This document shows positions 10,322-35,006 of a DNA stretch of 40,109 nt, one piece after another. The translations under genes were made by a program, and so were the position numbers. The stretch is from NCBI GenBank assembly GCA_018897155.1, contig JAHILE010000010.1:1-40109 (forward strand). The letters run 5' to 3'. The first letter of the stretch is position 1. Every line of letters begins with the position of its first letter. The stretch comes from Nanoarchaeota archaeon. Its GTDB lineage: Archaea > EX4484-52 > LFW-46. Below the pieces are notes generated by a model. The model was given only the letters and a program-made list of their open reading frames with translations. It did not search any database and had not been told where the DNA came from.

Positions 10322-10864
10322 ATGAACATGCTTGAAGATGTCTCTGAAAGTAAATTTCTGTTGATAGTGCTTTCTGAAGAGCAATACATGAAACAGATAT
10401 ACGAAATAGTCATGTCCATCAAACAGACAAAGAACAAAGTCTGCTATGTGTGCATCAGCAAGCCGTACGGCGATGTTGTTGAAGACCTGAAAAAGAACGG
10501 CATTGACACAAAAGCCTTTGTATTTATCGATGTCTTAAGCAGCCACTATGAAAAGCCGCGGCCAATAAAAAACTGCATATTTCTTGATTCCCCGGACCTG
10601 GATTCCATAAAGCGCGCAATAGATGGAGCCATAGCACAAGAAGCCTGCAGTGTCTTGCTTTTTGATACCCTGTCCGCGATGCTTATATACCAGGAAAGCT
10701 TTCCGGTTCTCAGGTTCGCCCACAGCATGACAATGGGAAAAAATCAGGAAAACGTAAAGAAGGTGTTCCTCGTTCTTAAAAAAGGAAATGGTATTGAAAA
10801 AGAGAACGCTTCACTGATAAGCGACCTGAAGATGTTTGCGGACAAAACGCTAGAGATATGTTAG
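10322..10864 (+). CDS. P-loop-less RecA/KaiC-like protein, paralog 1
   Basis: A 180-residue protein with the strand order of a KaiC-type core but no Walker A: after strand 1 (FLLIVLSEEQ) there is no GxxxxGKT. Recognisable parts are VCYVCISKPYGDVVEDLKKNG, FIDVLSSHY, a Walker B-like strand SVLLFDTLSAML and the terminal DLKMFADKTLEI. About half the residues match the next gene, including FIDVLSSHY, FLDSP and MFADK. Similar P-loop-less KaiC relatives in archaea (for example DUF835- and DUF7504-type proteins) have no established function. I infer an ATP-independent signalling partner. Confidence 0.6.
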   Translation: MNMLEDVSESKFLLIVLSEEQYMKQIYEIVMSIKQTKNKVCYVCISKPYGDVVEDLKKNGIDTKAFVFIDVLSSHYEKPRPIKNCIFLDSPDLDSIKRAIDGAIAQEACSVLLFDTLSAMLIYQESFPVLRFAHSMTMGKNQENVKKVFLVLKKGNGIEKENASLISDLKMFADKTLEIC

Positions 10865-10918: not shown

Positions 10919-11482
10919 ATGAGCCTAAAAAAGGATATTGAAAAAAGCAAGTTCCTTGTTTTTCTGCTTGATGAGGACCATCACATTGACGAAGTTGTTG
11001 AGGTGACAAAGTCCCTTAAAAACAAGGATTCCAAAATCTGCTACGTGTGCCTGAGCAGAACATTTGATGACGTTTGCGGCGACTTCGAAAAAAAGGGGAT
11101 GGACCTAAAAAGGTTCTATTTCATAGATGTCCTGAGTTCGCATTACGGCAAAAAGAAGAACGAAAAAAACTGCCTGTTTCTTGATTCGCCGACAAACATT
11201 CAGGAAATAAAGCGCACGATACTAACCGTGCTGAAGGAAAAGAAATGCAACACCCTGATACTGGACACAATATCCGCAATGCTTGTTTATCATGACGCAA
11301 GAAACATAGAGCAATTCACCAATGATATCCTTTTGGAAGAGCAGAACAAAGAAAAGATCATTTACATGGCGTTCAAGCATAACCTTTGCACTCTGCCTCA
11401 TGAGAACGAAATGCTGATAAATGACCTCAACATGTTCGCAGACAAGATGATTGACATATCGCTAAAAAAAGCCAGTAAATAG
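10919..11482 (+). CDS. P-loop-less RecA/KaiC-like protein, paralog 2
   Basis: A 187-residue paralog of the preceding gene. It shares KICYVCLSR, a FEKKGMDLKRFYFIDVLSS block, NCLFLDSP, IKRTILTVL, a Walker B-like LILDTISAMLVYH and the closing LINDLNMFADKMIDI. It also lacks a Walker A. The high conservation around the LDT-SAML strand and the C-terminal helix suggests that those surfaces matter. It is followed 33 nt later by a CheY-like gene in the same direction, so a link to phospho-signalling is likely but unproven. Confidence 0.6.
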   Translation: MSLKKDIEKSKFLVFLLDEDHHIDEVVEVTKSLKNKDSKICYVCLSRTFDDVCGDFEKKGMDLKRFYFIDVLSSHYGKKKNEKNCLFLDSPTNIQEIKRTILTVLKEKKCNTLILDTISAMLVYHDARNIEQFTNDILLEEQNKEKIIYMAFKHNLCTLPHENEMLINDLNMFADKMIDISLKKASK

Positions 11483-11530
11483 GCAAAATGTTTTTAATGG
11501 ATTAAATCAAAAATAATGGAGGAAGAAAAA

Positions 11531-11899
11531 ATGGCAAAAAAAATAATGGTTGTAGATGATGAGGAAAGCCTGCGGGAACTGTTAGATGCCGTATTGACGC
11601 CAGAAGGCTATGAAGTTACGCTCGCATCAGACGGAAAGGACTGCCTTGAGAAGCTGAAAACATTAACTCCTGACCTCATTCTGCTTGACATGATGATGCC
11701 GGGTTTGTCGGGAAGGGAAACCTGCGAGAAAATAAGGGAAAACCCGAAAACAAAAGGCCTGAAAGTCGCTTTTCTCACAGTAGCAAGATTTTCCGAATCA
11801 GGAAAAGACACTTTGAAGAAGATGCAGGTATCGGATTACATAACAAAGCCGTTTGACAATGCGGATTTAATCAAGCGAGTAAAGAAGATTATTGGCTAA
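11531..11899 (+). CDS. CheY-like single-domain response regulator
   Basis: A 122-residue receiver domain with nothing attached. It has the acidic pair Asp9-Asp10 (VVDDEE), the phosphoacceptor Asp53 (LLLDMMMPG), Thr83 (FLTVA) and Lys106 (ITKPF). A GGAGG site at 11518-11522 is correctly spaced for the ATG at 11531, so I prefer this start to the ATG at 11516. The probable phosphodonor is the Cache-HAMP kinase at 13981-15612, and the CheC-type protein is a candidate phosphatase. The 3' end overlaps the convergent small gene by 11 bases. Confidence 0.95.
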   Translation: MAKKIMVVDDEESLRELLDAVLTPEGYEVTLASDGKDCLEKLKTLTPDLILLDMMMPGLSGRETCEKIRENPKTKGLKVAFLTVARFSESGKDTLKKMQVSDYITKPFDNADLIKRVKKIIG

Positions 11900-12153: not shown

Positions 12154-12258
12154 TCAATATATCTCTTCTGAATGCATCCGACACATTATCAAGCCAACGA
12201 TTCCAAGCACATACCGATGAATGAAGAATCCTGCAGCATTGCCCGGCAGTTCTGTTTA
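12154..12258 (-). other. In-frame ORF continuing past the stop of the 7TM-like gene
   Basis: After the TAA of the membrane protein (12256-12258) the same frame stays open for 33 codons to TGA at 12154-12156. It encodes AAGFFIHRYVLGIVGLIMC, which would make one more membrane helix. This may be a decayed 3' end, a readthrough extension or chance. Confidence 0.25.
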
Positions 12259-13029
12259 TTTCACATCAAGCAAATCCTTTGTATAGTACATTCCTGCGCC
12301 TATTGTGAAGAATGCCAGAGAAAATAAAATATCCACCCAATTGCCCGTATAATATGTGCCCGCCGAAGTAGTCCATGAGAATGAAAAATCAGCCATAGAC
12401 TGTATGATGAATCCCGCGCATATTATCGAAATCGGCTTAAACATCTTTCCTCCGCGGATTAATGTCAATAAAACAATCGTAAACGACAAAAACACGGCAT
12501 CGCCAACAGGATAAAACACGTTCAATGCCTTTTCAATGCCGGATACATTTTCAACAAGCTTTGACTGGATAAATAGAATATAAGTGACTGCGAAAACCGC
12601 AACAGGAATTACCGCCAGTTTTATGATTGTTCCGGCATCAAACGAATTCTTTATGCTTTTCAAAAGCCAGAAAAGCCCCCACGAAGCAGAAAGCACGGTC
12701 CCGACAAACAAAGCATCTGCTATTGAAGGATATGGAACTTCAAGTTTCATCGCGATGTTGTAATACAGCCATGTGAGCGCGCCAAAGCCCCAAAAAAGAA
12801 GCCCAATCGAGATAAATAAAAGAGATTTTCCGAGCGCGCTTCCAAACGAAAACGCCTTTGCCTGCTTAATTCCTATTGCTGCAGCAAATGCAATTATGAG
12901 AAACTGCCCGACATCTGTGATAAAATACCTTAAATCCGAAGGGGCTCCCTTAGACGGCTCAAGAGCCATTCCCGCAATAGCGAGCGCGCTTATCAGCACG
13001 AATCCTAAAAATAATTTAGCAGATGCCAT
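12256..13029 (-). CDS. Multi-spanning membrane protein, probable sensor
   Basis: About 257 residues with seven or eight hydrophobic segments and short loops. The segment LEVPYPSIADALFVG resembles the P-x-PS-x-AD signature seen in the membrane sensing regions of many bacterial diguanylate cyclases and kinases, but no output domain is attached. Translation most likely starts at ATG 13029 (TTG 13041 is possible); a TATA element TTTATATATG lies around 13061-13070. It is followed by the small paralog A gene. I infer a membrane receptor working through a separate partner. Confidence 0.55.
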   Translation of the reverse strand: MASAKLFLGFVLISALAIAGMALEPSKGAPSDLRYFITDVGQFLIIAFAAAIGIKQAKAFSFGSALGKSLLFISIGLLFWGFGALTWLYYNIAMKLEVPYPSIADALFVGTVLSASWGLFWLLKSIKNSFDAGTIIKLAVIPVAVFAVTYILFIQSKLVENVSGIEKALNVFYPVGDAVFLSFTIVLLTLIRGGKMFKPISIICAGFIIQSMADFSFSWTTSAGTYYTGNWVDILFSLAFFTIGAGMYYTKDLLDVK

Positions 13030-13067
13030 AGCTACCCACAATACTTAATATTCATGAAGGCATATAT

Positions 13068-13980: not shown

Positions 13981-15612
13981 TCATTTTTCAGCAATCTTCT
14001 GAATGCCTCTTTTCAAAGAGCCTTTTGCCGGCAGCGTGAAGTGGAACTCGCTTCCTTTTTCATGCACGCTCTCGAACCATATCTTTCCGCCGAGCAGATC
14101 CACAAGCTCTTTGCACAGGGAGAGCCCGAGGCCCACTCCGCCCACACTCCTTGTATACGACGAATCAACCTGGTAAAACCTCGTGAATATCTTCTCCTGA
14201 TTCTTCCTTGCTATGCCTATGCCTGTATCCTTGACTATGAAGTGCAGGATGCCGTCTTCTCTTGATATTTTCACGGTTATTTTCCCCTTCTGAGTGTATT
14301 TGACCGAGTTGTTTATGAGGTTCATCAATATCTGCGTCAGGCGCTCGCGGTCAGTGGTGATTTTCGGCAGGTTTTTATCAATAATGTATTCGGACTCCAG
14401 CCCCTTGGCTTTTATCTGAACGTCCATTTCCGTGCGCACAGTGTCAATCACATCATTTATATCAACTTCGGAGAAGTCAAAGTTCATGGCATTGAGGTCA
14501 ATACGCGAAAGGTCAAGCACGTCGTTTACAAGCTTTGCAAGCCGCGTTGTCTCATGATCCATTATTTTAAGGTATTTATCCCTTTTTTCCGGATCATCCG
14601 CAACTTTTTTGTCCTGCAGAAGCTGTGAGAATCCGTGAATGGACGTCATCGGCGTTTTCAATTCATGCGCGGCAATTGACATGAATTCATTCTTTTTTAT
14701 GTCAGTCTCCTTCAGCTCATCCACACTTTCCGACAGCTTATCACGCGCCTCTGTAAGCGACTTGTTCAGCTCCTCTGTGTCATCCATCATGTTGAGAACC
14801 GCGTTCTTGGTTGTAGTCAGCTCATCCACTTTCTGGTTCAGCTCCTTTGTCTTCTCGGCAACTTCTTCCTTGAGAGTCTTGTTGAATGTTTCAATCTTTG
14901 CCTTGGATTCCTTAATGTCAGAAGCCATTTTGTTAAACGCGCCCGCCATTCTTTCGAATTCATCCCCTGTCCTGAGTTTCACTTTCACATCCAGATTGCC
15001 TGCGCTAATGCTATCTATGCCCGATGCCAGTTCCCCGATTGGCTGCGCTATCATTCTTCGGAACAGGAAAACGCCCGAAACTATTATTGACGCCGTTATA
15101 AGCGCCACGGCAATGCTGCTCATAAGATTCAGGCGGGCGAGTATGTTTTCGATATATTCCTTCTTGTATCCGACATGAAGATACCCTGCCACATAGGTCC
15201 CGTCCTTTAATGGCATCGTGGCTTCGATAATGGGCTGGTTTCCCATGTTCAGCTCCTTTGTGCTAAACGCATCATCCGGTTCTTCCTGGCTTTGGCGCAT
15301 CTCTTCAGGCACGCCTGTTAAAAATGTGTGCGCCGTAATTTTATTGTCGATGCCGTGAACAACAATGTACTCCACAAACCCTTTTTTTATTTCCTTTTCC
15401 TCGAATATTAAGGCAGTCACGGATGCATAATCCTTGTCCGCGGCGTATGGAAATATCTTCTTTTCCAGAATCTCAAGCCCTATCTTCTCTCGCGCAACCA
15501 GATTTTTCTCAAGCTCGCCCCGCACCAGCTCGGAGTTTAAAATAATGAGCATAGCTCCAGCTATTAAGATTAAAAAGGCAAAAACCAAAGACAGCTTATA
15601 TTGGAGTTTCAT
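13981..15612 (-). CDS. Membrane histidine kinase (Cache-HAMP-HisKA-HATPase)
   Basis: 543 residues. TM1 is at about 8-27, followed by an outside single-Cache-like region (28-160, with EYIVVHGIDNKI and GYLHVGYKK). TM2 is at 164-185, then HAMP (186-240), a coiled coil (240-305), HisKA with His316 in AAHELKTPMTSIHGFSQLL, and HATPase with the N box NLINNSVKYT (431-440), G1 DTGIGI (462-467) and G2 GGVGLGLSL (491-499). It autophosphorylates on ATP and should pass phosphate to a receiver; the only one in the window is the CheY-like protein. Its ATG overlaps the stop of the binding-protein gene (ATGA), so the two form a sensor unit. Confidence 0.95.
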   Translation of the reverse strand: MKLQYKLSLVFAFLILIAGAMLIILNSELVRGELEKNLVAREKIGLEILEKKIFPYAADKDYASVTALIFEEKEIKKGFVEYIVVHGIDNKITAHTFLTGVPEEMRQSQEEPDDAFSTKELNMGNQPIIEATMPLKDGTYVAGYLHVGYKKEYIENILARLNLMSSIAVALITASIIVSGVFLFRRMIAQPIGELASGIDSISAGNLDVKVKLRTGDEFERMAGAFNKMASDIKESKAKIETFNKTLKEEVAEKTKELNQKVDELTTTKNAVLNMMDDTEELNKSLTEARDKLSESVDELKETDIKKNEFMSIAAHELKTPMTSIHGFSQLLQDKKVADDPEKRDKYLKIMDHETTRLAKLVNDVLDLSRIDLNAMNFDFSEVDINDVIDTVRTEMDVQIKAKGLESEYIIDKNLPKITTDRERLTQILMNLINNSVKYTQKGKITVKISREDGILHFIVKDTGIGIARKNQEKIFTRFYQVDSSYTRSVGGVGLGLSLCKELVDLLGGKIWFESVHEKGSEFHFTLPAKGSLKRGIQKIAEK

Positions 15613-16871
15613 AAGGCATCACGTGGATCCCCCCACCCTACCCCCCCCCCCTCAAACAGCAAAAATCTCCCGCCGGCAAGGCGCGAAAAAAATATGCGGT
15701 CAAATGCCTGATGGTCTGCGGGCCCGTAATTCACTGGTATGCCTATGCCCACGCTGTAGTCCTCAAAAGATTCGAGTGTTTGGATAAGCTTTTCGCGGCT
15801 CAAATCCCTGCCTGCGGCATCCAGGGCGCGCACAAGAAGCTTGGCATTTACAAAACCTTCAAGCCCTGTGTAGGTGGGCGAATTGCCCGGGAAGTACTTT
15901 GCAGTAAGGTCCCTGTAATCCTTGACTATTTTTAAGTGAATCGCAGATACCTCGTACGGGTCAGAAACCACCTGCGTAACGATTATCTTATCCGAAGAAT
16001 TTATCCCGCGCTTTGACAGCTCTTCGGCAAATGCGTCAGATCCCACAAAAGACACCGAGTGGAAGTACGGGTCCTGCCCTTCTTTTTTATAAAGAGCCAC
16101 GAACTTTGCAATCGGAGCATAAGTGCCTATCATGATAACTGCATCCGGGTTCGAATTCATTATTGTCTCAACGCCTGCCTCCACGTTCTCGGTCCCTCTT
16201 GCATACGACGCTTTGGCGGCAAGCGACATGCTGCGTTTGCTTAAGGCGATTTCTGTTCCCTTCAGCCCGGTCATGCCGAATGCGTCGTCCTGATAAAACA
16301 CAGCTATTTTCTTTAAGCCGAGATTATCGGCAAAGTAAGCAACTGCGGCTTCTGTCTCGTCATAGTATGATGCCCTGACATTGAATATGTACTTGCGAAA
16401 GGGGGTTCTCAGCTCCTCTGCCCCGGTGAACAGCCCGAGAAGCGGAATTTTTGCCTCGTCAACCATATCGATTATCCTGACGCTTGTCGGAGTTCCCACA
16501 TAATCGAACAGCATGAAGACCTTGTCGTCTGCAATCAGCTTCTGGGTGTTTGCCACTGTTTTTGGCGGGTCGTACTCGTCGTCATAAGTTATCATGCGGA
16601 TTTTCCTGCCCTGAACGCCTCCTTTCTCATTTATATCGTTTATAAACGCCAGCGAGCCGCGCGTGTACTGGGTGCCAAGAAAGCTCGCATGCCCGCTTAA
16701 GGCAGACGAGGAGCCGATAAGGATTTCGGAATCCGTAATGCCGTTTGTATCTCCCGGATTCTGCGCCCCATCAATCTGCGCCGGGGCTTCCCCGCTTGTG
16801 TAATATATGTAGCCTCCGGTCAATGCAATCGCCAGTATTGCTGCTGCGATAATTAAGTACGTTTTATTCAT
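15609..16871 (-). CDS. Branched-chain amino acid-type solute-binding protein (LivK-like)
   Basis: 420 residues: an N-terminal anchor or signal (YLIIAAAILAIALTGG), then a type I periplasmic binding fold. Typical signs are ILIGSSSALSGHASFLG, GGVQGRKIRMITYDDEYDP, NTQKLIADDKV, KKIAVFYQDDAFG and NPDAVIMIGTYAPIAKF. No permease or ABC ATPase gene is near. With its stop overlapping the kinase start, it probably delivers a ligand signal to that kinase and not to a transporter. The last 13 residues (GGGVGWGDPRDAL) are encoded by an 11-G run and look unlike the family, so the C-terminus may vary or be misread. Confidence 0.9.
   Translation of the reverse strand: MNKTYLIIAAAILAIALTGGYIYYTSGEAPAQIDGAQNPGDTNGITDSEILIGSSSALSGHASFLGTQYTRGSLAFINDINEKGGVQGRKIRMITYDDEYDPPKTVANTQKLIADDKVFMLFDYVGTPTSVRIIDMVDEAKIPLLGLFTGAEELRTPFRKYIFNVRASYYDETEAAVAYFADNLGLKKIAVFYQDDAFGMTGLKGTEIALSKRSMSLAAKASYARGTENVEAGVETIMNSNPDAVIMIGTYAPIAKFVALYKKEGQDPYFHSVSFVGSDAFAEELSKRGINSSDKIIVTQVVSDPYEVSAIHLKIVKDYRDLTAKYFPGNSPTYTGLEGFVNAKLLVRALDAAGRDLSREKLIQTLESFEDYSVGIGIPVNYGPADHQAFDRIFFSRLAGGRFLLFEGGGVGWGDPRDAL
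15641..15651. repeat. Homopolymer of 11 C (G on the coding strand)
   Basis: An 11-base run, followed by a six-C run at 15629-15634, lies about 30-40 bases before the binding-protein stop and the kinase start. One base fewer creates a TAG directly after the run; one more changes the tail and stops at a TGA upstream of the kinase ATG. It may be phase-variable or an assembly error. Confidence 0.8.
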
Positions 16872-16946: not shown

Positions 16947-18569
16947 TTATTTCTTCTCCTCCAGTTCCTTTATCCTTTTCTTCAATTCAATCATCTTCAG
17001 TTCCCTTCCGACAGCAATCTTGTTGAACCGCTCCATTTCTGCAACCTTTTCCTCGAGCTCTTTTGTTCTTTCAGCAACCTGCTTTTCCAGAGACGCGCCG
17101 TGCGCCTTCAGCTCTTTTGTCTTCTCTGCAACCTCTTTTTCCAGAGCAATATTGTAATTTTTCAATTCCTTTGTTTTCTCTGCAACTTCCTGCTCAAGCT
17201 CTTCTGTATGTTTTCCGAGCGCTCCGTGGGATTTCTTCAAATCTTCAGCCATGTTGTTGAACACTGCGGCAAGCACCCCCACTTCATTTTCAGACGCAAC
17301 ATCCGGCTTAACGTTGAAATTGCCCTTGGAGAGCTCCCTCGCTGCTTCTGTCAGGTTCTTTACCGGCCCAACAATCCTGCCGATAAGAAAAAAGCCGGCA
17401 GCCCATGCAATAACAAGAATCAATAAGCCTGTGGGCAAAATGCGGAAATAGGTCAGCTCGCGGACAGAATTCTTCAGCTCTTTGTCAATTGTTTTAACGG
17501 CTCCGAGCAGGACTTCCTCCTCGACAACTATACCCATGCTAAATTCGGTTCCCTTCAGGGGAGCATAAGCAATAAAGAGATTTTTATTGCCTGCTGTTAT
17601 ATTCTCAAAACCGGTCGAGCCCGCCTTCATTTTATTCAAAACAGAAGAAAATTTGCTGTTGGTAATATTGTTAAGATTTACCCGGGATTCCCCTCTGCCT
17701 CGTGCCCTGCCGACTATATCTGTGTACGCCTGTTCCGGAAGGGCAATGGAATATCCCTCTTTGTCAACAAGGAAGGAATAAGAGTCCTCTATCGGATTGT
17801 ATTCTTCAATATTCCCGATAATCTTGTTCAAAGTGACGTCAATGCCCAGGACCCCTATGAATCCGCCTTGCATGGCATAAACCGGCGCCACAGCCGATAT
17901 CATAAGCCCCTGCCCGGCAGGGTCGTCATATACCGGCGTCCATACGACTTTCTGCTCCGGATTGTTCTTGGGATTGGCAGACGTAAAGAAAATATCTTTT
18001 GTAGCCTCGAAATCCGGAGGCACGATGTTGCCCAGCCCTATATTCGGATAGTATCTTGATGTCTCGCGGGCGCCCACCATCCATATGGCAACTATGTTCT
18101 GGTCATTTTCAAGGACTTTCGGGAATGCGTAATCCAGATATGCGTTCAGTTCCAGTTCCTCTTTCACATCGCCGGTAATCGTGATCTGCCCAGGAACAAA
18201 GACCGATGACGTATCATTCGGCCCGTTGAGGTATTGCCCTCCGCTTCCGGTAAAGACGCGCTCGCCAAATTTCCAGTAGTTATCCCTTGAAAAGGCTTTG
18301 GGATTTTCAAATATATTTTTGGTATAATCCGCAAGGCTGCCTGCGTTTTTACGCACATTTTCAAAAACAAGGTCGTTCTTTTCGGCTGATGCTATAGTAA
18401 GCTGAACCAGAAAGCCCTCTGCCTGGCTGCGCAGGGAATCAGCCGCAATCTCCCGGGCATTGCTTCCGGCATCCATAATCGAGTTGATTCCTATATAGCC
18501 TGTGACAAATATTGACACAGTAGTCAGACCCAATAAAAAAACAAACATTTCTGTTTTAATGCTCTTCAT
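16947..18569 (-). CDS. dCache-HAMP sensor with coiled-coil tail, no output domain
   Basis: 540 residues. TM1 is at about 8-28 and is followed by a large double-Cache domain (about 40-365; strands such as IVAIWMVGARETSRYYP, VVWTPVYDD and GGFIGVLGIDVTLNKI are typical). TM2 is at about 375-400, then HAMP. The rest is coiled coil with three copies of a unit containing EKEVAEKTKELK. It ends in ERFNKIAVGRELKMIELKKR. There is no methyl-accepting hairpin, HisKA, HATPase or GGDEF domain. The same end is found in the neighbouring 4HB-HAMP protein. I infer that it signals by binding another protein through this tail. Confidence 0.85.
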   Translation of the reverse strand: MKSIKTEMFVFLLGLTTVSIFVTGYIGINSIMDAGSNAREIAADSLRSQAEGFLVQLTIASAEKNDLVFENVRKNAGSLADYTKNIFENPKAFSRDNYWKFGERVFTGSGGQYLNGPNDTSSVFVPGQITITGDVKEELELNAYLDYAFPKVLENDQNIVAIWMVGARETSRYYPNIGLGNIVPPDFEATKDIFFTSANPKNNPEQKVVWTPVYDDPAGQGLMISAVAPVYAMQGGFIGVLGIDVTLNKIIGNIEEYNPIEDSYSFLVDKEGYSIALPEQAYTDIVGRARGRGESRVNLNNITNSKFSSVLNKMKAGSTGFENITAGNKNLFIAYAPLKGTEFSMGIVVEEEVLLGAVKTIDKELKNSVRELTYFRILPTGLLILVIAWAAGFFLIGRIVGPVKNLTEAARELSKGNFNVKPDVASENEVGVLAAVFNNMAEDLKKSHGALGKHTEELEQEVAEKTKELKNYNIALEKEVAEKTKELKAHGASLEKQVAERTKELEEKVAEMERFNKIAVGRELKMIELKKRIKELEEKK

Positions 18570-18586
18570 ACGTTATCACTTCCCTA

Positions 18587-19534
18587 TCATCTTTTCATGC
18601 TTTCCAATTCATTTATCCTCTTTTTCAATTCAATCATCTTGAGCTCTCGCCCCACTGCAATCTTATTGAAGCGCTCAAGCTCTGCAACCTTTTCCTCGAG
18701 CTCTTTCTTCGATGCCTCAAGCTTTTTGTTTTTGATGGATATTTCCTCATCCCTTTTTGTGATATCCTCAACCATGCAGTTGAATGAATGAGTAAGCTTC
18801 CCTATCTCGTCATCAGAAGCCCCCTCCACTATTTTTTTGATGTTCCTATAGTCGCCGCTCATTTCTTCCGACGCCCTTGTCAGTTCTATCACAGGATCCG
18901 CGATTGAGTGGGCGAAGATAATGCCGCTTAGAATTGCCGAGATCATGGAAACGATGATAATTATCAAAATCGAAACCAACGACCTGTTTATCGTCGTATT
19001 GACGGCTTCGCCCCGATATTTTATTTCCTCTGACTTATGCTTCAGCGCAGAGTCCAGCGATACAAAAAGCTTTGCCCTGGCGTACTCAAGCGTTTCGCCG
19101 GCTTCTGCAATTTCGGTGTCCTTTGTCCCGCTGTTTTTCAGCAAAAACATTCTGTCCGAAGCGCCGATAAAAGCCGCGGCATTCTCTTTAATCTCATCCC
19201 TTGGCTCTCCATCTTCGAGAAAAGGCTCGCCGATAATGGCACGGTATGCCTCAACAGAACTTATGAATTCCGCTTTGCTTTGAATCCTTGCGGCATCCCC
19301 TATATATTCGCGGGTATTGTTGCGCGCCTGTGCAAAATCCATTGTTGCGGCAAAAACCTGCATTGCGGCAATTTTCGCGTCTTTAAGCAAATTAATTGCG
19401 GGAATGGTCTCATTTTCCAGGGATTTGATGCCGCTGTCAACATATTTCATACTCACAAAGCCGACATAGCCCACAATAACAGAAAATACAGAAAGCGCCA
19501 GAAATCCGGATACCAGTTTTTTGCTTAGGTTCAT
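18587..19534 (-). CDS. 4-helix-bundle HAMP sensor with the same coiled-coil tail
   Basis: 315 residues. TM1 (about 8-28) is followed by a helical outside domain of the 4HB_MCP type (about 30-185), TM2 (SILIIIIVSMISAILSGIIF), HAMP (about 210-262) and a coiled coil ending in ERFNKIAVGRELKMIELKKR. It has no MCP signalling domain or kinase. The tail is nearly identical in protein to that of the dCache sensor, yet the DNA differs at many third codon positions, so the match reflects selection and not recent copying. It is the first gene of the minus-strand run, with a good TATA element and a GGTGATG site upstream. Confidence 0.8.
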   Translation of the reverse strand: MNLSKKLVSGFLALSVFSVIVGYVGFVSMKYVDSGIKSLENETIPAINLLKDAKIAAMQVFAATMDFAQARNNTREYIGDAARIQSKAEFISSVEAYRAIIGEPFLEDGEPRDEIKENAAAFIGASDRMFLLKNSGTKDTEIAEAGETLEYARAKLFVSLDSALKHKSEEIKYRGEAVNTTINRSLVSILIIIIVSMISAILSGIIFAHSIADPVIELTRASEEMSGDYRNIKKIVEGASDDEIGKLTHSFNCMVEDITKRDEEISIKNKKLEASKKELEEKVAELERFNKIAVGRELKMIELKKRINELESMKR

Positions 19535-32876: not shown

Positions 32877-34808
32877 TTATCCCGCCAGCACATTCAAATT
32901 ACCCAGCGCAACCGCCTTCAAAACCTTGTCGCCAAGTTCTGATTTTTTCTGGATTTTGACCTGCGCTTTTTTGCCAATTGTTGCAGAAAACAAAAATTCG
33001 TCGCCTTTGTAAATATCGACTTTTGACCCAACATAATTTTCTGGAACAACTATCGAAAGATAGCCGCCTGCTTCAAAAACACTGTATTTGATAGTTTTTT
33101 TCAGCGTTTCTATAATCGGCTCAACTGTCAAAGACATTCCGGTAAGCTTTTCAAGCTCTTTGATATTACTGCCTTCGCGTCCGATTACATATGCCATGTC
33201 TGCCTCCTCCACGCGCAGTATTGCGCGGTTCGCTGAAATGATTTCCACGCGCGGATTGGCAATTCTTTTTTTCAGAATTTCGTAAAGCCGCTCCTCTGCA
33301 AGCTTGTTTATTTTCGAGGTTTCTGCCTTGCTTTTTATCGGTATGACAACTGTCTGCTCGCCGTAAGTGTAGGCCTCAAAAAGCAGCCTGCCTGTCTCAA
33401 AATCAAGAATCTCAATAATGGGCCGCGCTAAATCTGCCTCAGTCATTCCGGTCGGGGTGCGCACATCAAGGTTCAGCGTATAGACCTGCTTTATCTCGCC
33501 GTTTCGAACATATACTATTGTGTCAATTACCTGCGGAATAAGGCCAAGCTCAATTCGCCCGATGAAACGATGAATCGTATCTATTGCCTGCGTTGCGTGA
33601 ATAACACCCAGCATTCCGACTCCTGCAAGCCGCATGTCTGCAAAAATCTTAAAGTCTTTTGTGCTTCTGACTTCATCATATATTGTGAAGTCGGGCCTGA
33701 CAAGAAGGAGTATGTCTGCGGTATTTGCCATGTCGTTATTCAGGGCGCCGTACTGCGTTATTTCCGGACCGACCTGCAAATCGCGTGGATGCTCCATTGT
33801 CTTTACGATTTTTCCTTTTTTCTGGTAAAACTCAGCCATTGCCTGAGCCAAAGTGCTTTTTCCATGTCCCGGAGGCCCGGCAACAATTATGCCTTCCGCA
33901 CGCTCATCAAACCGCTCAAGCAGTTTTTTCGAAAGCTTGTATTTTTCGATATCGACCTTAACAATGGGCCTTACCGCAGTTATTTCCATTTTCTCGGAAA
34001 ATGGATGCCTCGTTATTGCAATGCGGTATTTGCCAAGCTGTATCACTGTCGCCCCGCGCAAATCCATTTCTAAAAGCCCGCCCGAAGTTCTTGATTTTTC
34101 AAAAATTTCATGCGCCATATTTTCAAGAATATCCTCTGTCAATAGTTCGCCGTCGATTTCAATCAGCTTGAATTCACCGGGTTTCCCTCGTTTTGCTTTG
34201 GGAGTGCAGCCCTCCTTAAGATGAACCGACATAGTGTCCGAAGTAAAATAATCCTCAAGGCTCATTCGCTCGATTTCTGCTTTTTTGAAATAAAGCACTT
34301 TGACGCCCTCTGCTTCCGCAACCTTTGCCTGGACCATATCAGCAGTCACAAGAGTCGCTTTTAAGTTGCGCGCAATATCCCTTATCAGCGAGTCTATTCG
34401 GCCTGATTTTGCAAGCTGAATTTCCTCGATTGTCGGCTTTCTGCCGATCGTTGACATAGTAATGCCTTTTTCTTCTGCAAGCTCCCGTATTATTTTCAGC
34501 TCCTCAAGGCCTTCAAAGCCGATGTCTTTTCCGTGATTTGCCTGGTTCTCAAGCTCAGCTATCACGAATTCCGGAACAACGAGCTCGCCTGTGAGCTTTC
34601 CCTCGCGCACAAGGTCGGTTACATTGCCGTTTATTATTGCCGACGTGTCTGGAACGAACTTTTGAACATGTGTTTTTTGTTGATCCGCCCGTTGTTTTTG
34701 CTGATCTGCATTTTGTCTTAGAGCACCATGTTTTTCTGCAGCATTTGCCGCGTTTTTGGAAACAATTATGTTTTCCGTTTCTATCTTCTGTTTTTTTGTG
34801 TTTTTCAT
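32877..34808 (-). CDS. PIN-ATPase-KH protein (PINA type)
   Basis: About 643 residues. A Gln-rich N-terminus (ADQQKQRADQQK) precedes a PIN domain (about 50-170; VPDTSAIINGNV, ENQANHGKDIGFEGLEEL). A VirB11/PilT-type ATPase follows, with Walker A AGPPGHGKST and VIHATQAIDTIHRFIGRIELG, and then a C-terminal KH domain (MAYVIGREGSNIKELEKLTG). This is the architecture of archaeal PINA, a hexameric ATPase described in Sulfolobus as acting on Holliday junctions. The nearby RadA, RPA, HerA and XPD genes agree with a DNA repair role. ATG 34817 is an alternative start. Confidence 0.9.
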   Translation of the reverse strand: MKNTKKQKIETENIIVSKNAANAAEKHGALRQNADQQKQRADQQKTHVQKFVPDTSAIINGNVTDLVREGKLTGELVVPEFVIAELENQANHGKDIGFEGLEELKIIRELAEEKGITMSTIGRKPTIEEIQLAKSGRIDSLIRDIARNLKATLVTADMVQAKVAEAEGVKVLYFKKAEIERMSLEDYFTSDTMSVHLKEGCTPKAKRGKPGEFKLIEIDGELLTEDILENMAHEIFEKSRTSGGLLEMDLRGATVIQLGKYRIAITRHPFSEKMEITAVRPIVKVDIEKYKLSKKLLERFDERAEGIIVAGPPGHGKSTLAQAMAEFYQKKGKIVKTMEHPRDLQVGPEITQYGALNNDMANTADILLLVRPDFTIYDEVRSTKDFKIFADMRLAGVGMLGVIHATQAIDTIHRFIGRIELGLIPQVIDTIVYVRNGEIKQVYTLNLDVRTPTGMTEADLARPIIEILDFETGRLLFEAYTYGEQTVVIPIKSKAETSKINKLAEERLYEILKKRIANPRVEIISANRAILRVEEADMAYVIGREGSNIKELEKLTGMSLTVEPIIETLKKTIKYSVFEAGGYLSIVVPENYVGSKVDIYKGDEFLFSATIGKKAQVKIQKKSELGDKVLKAVALGNLNVLAG

Positions 34809-35006
34809 AAAAATCAATCTTTATATCTCAATTATTTTAGGCAATGAATTTTTGCATTAATCCGCTTAACTTCAATCGCCAATCCATATTATTTTGAAAT
34901 TAGTGTTCTAGATTTATATGGCTAAGTCCGGCTTTATTCTGAATGTTAGTTATATAGGACATACTAAGAAATAGAGAGCGAGGTGCTATTTCGTTTGTTT
35001 TTCCAA
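34809..35006. other. Gap between the PINA-type and L21e genes
   Basis: About 190 AT-rich bases with no gene that I can support. A 17-codon ORF (MAKSGFILNVSY) at about 34919-34972 on plus is probably chance. Confidence 0.4.

Follow-up and report, generated by a model that had tools for sequence, protein, structure and literature searches.

Outputless HAMP receptors of the MCP/CheA system act on a separately encoded kinase, with many receptors served by one kinase. In split histidine kinases the kinase core itself is divided. Kinase function in these proteins, including the Hik36-Hik43 pair (PMC7656254), is spread over two genes (PMC3591291). Histidine kinase-like sensor proteins without a catalytic domain that possess HisKA but not HATPase have been described in archaea (PMC5847659). 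The S-helix is a coiled helix linked to PAS and HAMP domains and to histidine kinases; it bears an ERT signature and almost always sits between two domains (PMC1592074).

The window analyzed here is a stretch of 40,109 nucleotides from a nanoarchaeon (contig JAHILE010000010.1) that encodes two receptors with the same C-terminal tail and a nearby histidine kinase. Like MCPs, the tail receptors combine a 4HB or Cache sensor with HAMP, but have no MCPsignal hairpin (E ≤ 1); the locus further differs from MCP/CheA in the length of the tail (~35 residues), in having an ordinary HisKA/HATPase kinase and in the putative contact, which is the coil before HisKA. The tail resembles the S-helix (PMC1592074) as a coiled helix associated with PAS, HAMP and histidine kinases, and repeats directly before the tail of one receptor may be ERT-like. 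The tail itself has a different invariant core and is positioned C-terminally in nearly all proteins rather than between two domains. Function is spread over more than one gene as in split histidine kinases, but a single chain holds both HisKA and HATPase in the window, and the sensor is separate. In contrast to the archaeal histidine kinase-like proteins, the window tail receptors lack a HisKA-like domain.

Comparison of the sequences makes it likely that the tail is a docking helix for a coil in the kinase, designated NILED, and that the outputless receptors are inputs of a shared kinase. The pairing of the tail with this second, previously unannotated kinase coil is new here. On balance, we lean slightly toward the broader proposal that the C-terminal receptor tail and the LNILED kinase coil constitute an unnamed docking code by which many outputless sensors would converge on one histidine kinase in many bacterial and archaeal phyla, a second such arrangement and a simpler one than that of chemoreceptors and their kinase. 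Many PAS, GAF, HAMP and REC proteins show no visible output. If the tail docks, the output of such proteins would be assignable from sequence as the NILED kinase of their own genome, and bacteria, those of candidate phyla included, as well as nanoarchaea would use a design in which many receptors share a kinase. With 35 residues for the tail and 21 for the NILED unit, both would also be compact building blocks for synthetic sensors.

Two Receptors with Unrelated Sensors Share a C-terminal Helix

Both receptor genes are intact open reading frames on the minus strand where the sequence-only reading had placed them. The 540-aa receptor (16947-18569) includes a HAMP domain (E 1.7e-13) and an MCP-like_PDC_1 match above the Pfam cut-off, together with a dCache_1 match (E 4.3e-9) that is below the curated cut-off. 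The 315-aa receptor (18587-19534) comprises 4HB_MCP_1 (E 1.6e-12) and HAMP. Neither protein matched HisKA, HATPase, MCPsignal or GGDEF in Pfam even at E ≤ 1, in agreement with the earlier proposal that a dCache-HAMP and a 4HB-HAMP receptor share a tail and have no output domain. The sensor parts are unrelated and, beyond the tail, alignment of the two proteins is limited to the HAMP/coil region.

The terminal helix that is common to the receptors, ERFNKIAVGRELKMIELKKRI, was delimited with a tail HMM to residues 503-537 of the dCache receptor (16959-17063) and residues 277-311 of the 4HB receptor (18602-18706). Searches of the 1.43 Mb genome with the tail profile recovered these two copies (E 2.7e-18 and 1.6e-19) and no others. 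AlphaFold2 predicts a single unbroken helix in the dCache receptor that starts where HAMP ends and stops one residue short of the C-terminus, with pLDDT ~98 across the tail. Three S-helix-like VAE(K/R)TKEL coil repeats, evident in the translation of the HAMP-tail interval of this receptor (17064-17207), directly precede the tail and do not recur inside it.

Purifying selection has kept the tail conserved as the C-terminal end of the receptors, as had been surmised from the two genes alone. The last 34 aligned codons of the window receptors specify only two residue differences (M/L and K/N), whereas most synonymous sites differ (pS 0.68, pN 0.03), which corresponds to a dN/dS of ~0.017–0.02. 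Among tails, the charged residues R20, E21, K23 and K28 are near-invariant and a second hydrophobic stripe also is present.

The Tail Is C-terminal in Bacteria and Archaea

A broad scan in which each species was represented by one genome yielded 80 tail loci. These are distributed among Patescibacteria, Omnitrophota, Nitrospirae, Deltaproteobacteria, Acidobacteria, Planctomycetota, Chloroflexi, and Bacteroidetes, as well as a gammaproteobacterium (Simiduia), Woesearchaeota, Aenigmatarchaeota, Thermoplasmata, methanogens, and others. Because the loci were ordered by how closely they match the tail, the proportions of C-terminal tails hold for close relatives: all 80 proteins in the broad scan end no more than 40 residues past the tail and, with all loci read, 172 of the 175 distinct tails, which come from many phyla, are C-terminal (protein end within 45 residues). 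The view that the segment is a linker ahead of other domains in bacteria thus was not sustained in this survey. The possibility that the tail is an archaeal peculiarity likewise was rejected, as C-terminal tails occur across many bacterial phyla. The three internal tails, which were the only ones found, are in PAS-tail-V4R fusions (L120, L122, and L123) in which V4R follows the variant tail VGREIRMLxLKQEINELR.

According to Pfam counts, PAS domains are present in tail proteins at 50 or more of the 80 loci, and HAMP, dCache, REC, and GAF also feature. No catalytic domain was among the Pfam families shown for the tail proteins of these loci; one long tail protein (L077) matched a home-made HATPase profile. 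Matches to Bcl-2_3, SymE, and Cse60 were discarded as artefacts in which weak matches were summed over PAS repeats.

Certain tails and settings are unusual. PAS proteins at three loci in the home phylum (L007-L009; genomes G014-G016) end in the divergent tail VV(D/E)RELKMIELEKEL, and a NILED kinase was not detected in these cases; the proteins may act with a diverged partner. The variant tail ELERWHKLTVDRELKMVELKKRIRELEDGRS is directly upstream of an aspartyl-tRNA synthetase-like gene in several genomes of one group (L115, L117, L125, and L132), with no adjoining NILED kinase. FIST-domain sensory proteins recur beside tail genes (L182 and other loci).

A Conserved Coil Precedes HisKA in the Adjacent Kinase

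The 543-aa protein encoded at 13981-15612 on the minus strand has the order HAMP-NILED-HisKA-HATPase. HisKA (14500-14694; E 1.4e-19) is followed by HATPase_c (E 4e-32), which identifies the protein as a two-component histidine kinase; Pfam also returned a weak sCache_3_2 match. The NILED motif, (R/K)AxLNILEDxxxE(K/R), is a second unannotated conserved coil that is located just N-terminal of HisKA and in which N16 and D20 are invariant. The coil in the window kinase, TTTKNAVLNMMDDTEELNKSL (14752-14835), was detected with the NILED profile (E 2.0e-8); the motif reads KNAVLNMMDDTEELNKSL within residues 260-290 and lies inside one long helix that extends from the HAMP exit to HisKA in a structure model. 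The archaea and Patescibacteria examined have a single NILED copy, and up to six copies with 21-residue spacing are present in many other bacteria. The idea that the tail and NILED are homologous coils was rejected as their profiles show no similarity to each other.

Neither the tail nor the NILED segment matches any Pfam family above cut-off, and the PDB contains no convincing relative of either. The strings VGRELKMIELK and LNILED were not found in the open-access papers searched, although a lack of published descriptions does not establish novelty, and open-access text searches for sensors that act in trans on a kinase retrieved nothing that matched. Plasmid and phage tblastn searches gave no match, which is uninformative as the low-complexity filter may mask the helix.

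Linkage and Co-occurrence of the Tail and NILED

The gene that follows a tail gene is on the same strand in 67 of 75 cases and within 50 bp in 53, numerous tail and kinase genes share a 4-bp overlap, and HATPase_c was present in the next gene in 32 of 65 cases. In tail loci, all 52 NILED-positive genes lie downstream on the strand of the tail gene, compared to 0 of 432 elsewhere (p = 4e-21), and NILED is carried by 49 of 78 histidine kinases downstream of tails versus 0 of 18 elsewhere, a locus-level test that is not independent of discovery as NILED was spotted first in kinases downstream of tails. The other 29 downstream kinases had no NILED match. The window contains outputless sensors bearing C-terminal tails and a NILED-HisKA kinase downstream on the same strand.

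Whole-genome draws, in which genomes often were fragmentary, were made after motif definition and are independent of discovery except for a few shared genomes (G041, G038, and G062). Among 279 nanoarchaeal genomes (the group of L021), the tail was detected in 19, NILED in 15, and both in 15 (p = 1.5e-21). The 76 genomes in this set that are HisKA-positive included 15 with both elements, three with the tail only, none with NILED only, and 58 with neither (p = 2.9e-13). As the association persists inside HisKA-positive genomes, it is not explained by histidine kinases as such. Each NILED-positive nanoarchaeal genome had one NILED match compared to one to seven tails, the pattern expected of a single kinase that serves many sensors. 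The set of 218 genomes around G041 included 32 with the tail, 19 with NILED, and 16 with both (p = 6.5e-13); NILED was undetected in 16 of the 32 tail genomes and the tail in three of the 19 NILED genomes. The tail-only genomes are attributable partly to the short NILED profile and partly to variant tails in other contexts, some cases being variant tails beside unrelated genes. The 34 genomes of the home phylum comprised eight with the tail, six with NILED, and five with both (p = 1e-3), and NILED was present in 30 of 33 tail genomes from the scan.

The Tail and NILED Are Equidistant from HAMP in Most Proteins

Of 19 receptors, 14 have V18 of the tail 52 or 56 residues beyond the HAMP DE motif, and the same values separate the DE motif from L15 of NILED in 13 of 14 kinases. 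Other spacings (45, 49, and 63) are one heptad off 52/56, and longer intervals of 74 (twice) and 92 residues also were noted, the latter in the window dCache receptor. The matching spacing places the tail and NILED at the same height in most of the membrane-bound receptors and kinases. The simplest reading of these alignments would be a side-by-side, parallel contact between the tail and NILED, but descent from a shared receptor ancestor could also give equal spacing in proteins that make no contact. In the sister species of the window (L019), 4HB-HAMP continues directly into a NILED kinase in one protein; the 4HB receptor of the window and the N-terminus of this kinase align over 284 columns that stop where the tail and NILED begin.

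Proposed Docking on the Kinase Coil and Alternative Explanations

From the conservation of the tail, its C-terminal position, operon linkage, genome co-occurrence, and the matching HAMP spacing, we infer a direct contact between the tail and NILED. Outputless receptors, whether 4HB-HAMP, dCache-HAMP, PAS arrays or the REC-tail proteins found elsewhere, would dock via the C-terminal tail, which would pack against and control the histidine kinase from the neighboring gene. On the kinase, contact would be made by the NILED coil, in the helix that leads from HAMP (or the N-terminus) to HisKA. The sequence-only reading regarded the tail as the output of the receptors: its assignment as the C-terminal end stands, whereas the tail probably docks on the NILED kinase of the same operon instead of being an output in its own right. 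Its choice of the kinase and KaiC-like proteins as candidate partners was apt.

An unlikely alternative is that the tail binds a different partner such as the receiver, a KaiC-like protein or a scaffold, and that proximity to NILED reflects clustering of signaling genes. Receiver and KaiC-like genes do recur at archaeal loci, and some tails adjoin FIST or unrelated genes. However, KaiC-like homologs are present at few, archaeal loci among the 80 whereas tails are common in bacteria too, and clustering alone does not account for an association of the tail with NILED kinases in particular instead of HisKA kinases in general, when 58 HisKA-positive genomes have neither element. That the tail merely is a coiled-coil cap which stabilizes receptor dimers, with signaling via HAMP or general coil contacts, fits with its prediction as one continuous helix after S-helix-like repeats. 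This explanation is quite improbable: the near-invariant charges and second hydrophobic stripe exceed the needs of a plain coiled coil, and co-occurrence with NILED would be unexplained.

It is very improbable that the two receptors arose from kinases by truncation or are what is left of longer proteins. Support for truncation was not found, although the 4-bp overlaps of tail and kinase genes leave room for an ancient gene fission; relatives in the same phylum also end at the tail, almost all distinct tails stop at the same place, and the tail codons have a dN/dS of ~0.017. The receptors had been interpreted as complete proteins at the outset, and this interpretation holds.

Genes Neighboring the Receptors and Kinase

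The substrate-binding protein encoded between the receptors and the kinase (Peripla_BP_6, E 7.9e-58; 15609-16871, minus strand) likely is a ligand carrier for a receptor. Solute-binding proteins also are located between receptor and kinase at L011, and a homolog is beside tail genes at L236. A single receiver domain protein (Response_reg, E 1.1e-27; 11516-11899, plus strand) is the likely phospho-acceptor, and close homologs are encoded in the tail/NILED loci L011, L019, L021, and L025. The KaiC-like small protein at 10322-10864 (plus strand), a homolog of the DUF7504/KaiC protein of L011, is the likely effector. A second small KaiC-like/DUF835-like protein, with a weak Pfam match, is encoded at 10919-11482 on the same strand, and a membrane protein at 12256-13041 (minus strand) has homologs at two other tail/NILED loci (L011 and L025).

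In two-component systems generally, signals flow from receptor to kinase to receiver, and from this we infer the direction of signaling in the window and the receiver and KaiC-like steps. The two receptors, probably with the substrate-binding protein, would feed the kinase, which would phosphorylate the receiver, and the latter would act through the KaiC-like proteins. Tail receptors, often solute-binding proteins, a NILED kinase, a single receiver and KaiC-like/DUF7504 proteins form a recurrent archaeal layout, every member of which is present in the window between 10322 and 19534. The receiver and KaiC-like genes sometimes are convergent (L235, L239, and L240), as in the window.

The first KaiC-like protein starts with MNMLEDVSESK, which resembles the NILED core, whereas its twin at 10919 does not; the resemblance may be due to chance. 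Elsewhere in the window, at 32877-34817 on the minus strand, a single PIN-T2SSE ATPase-KH chain combines a nuclease-like domain with a secretion-type ATPase and with KH domains.
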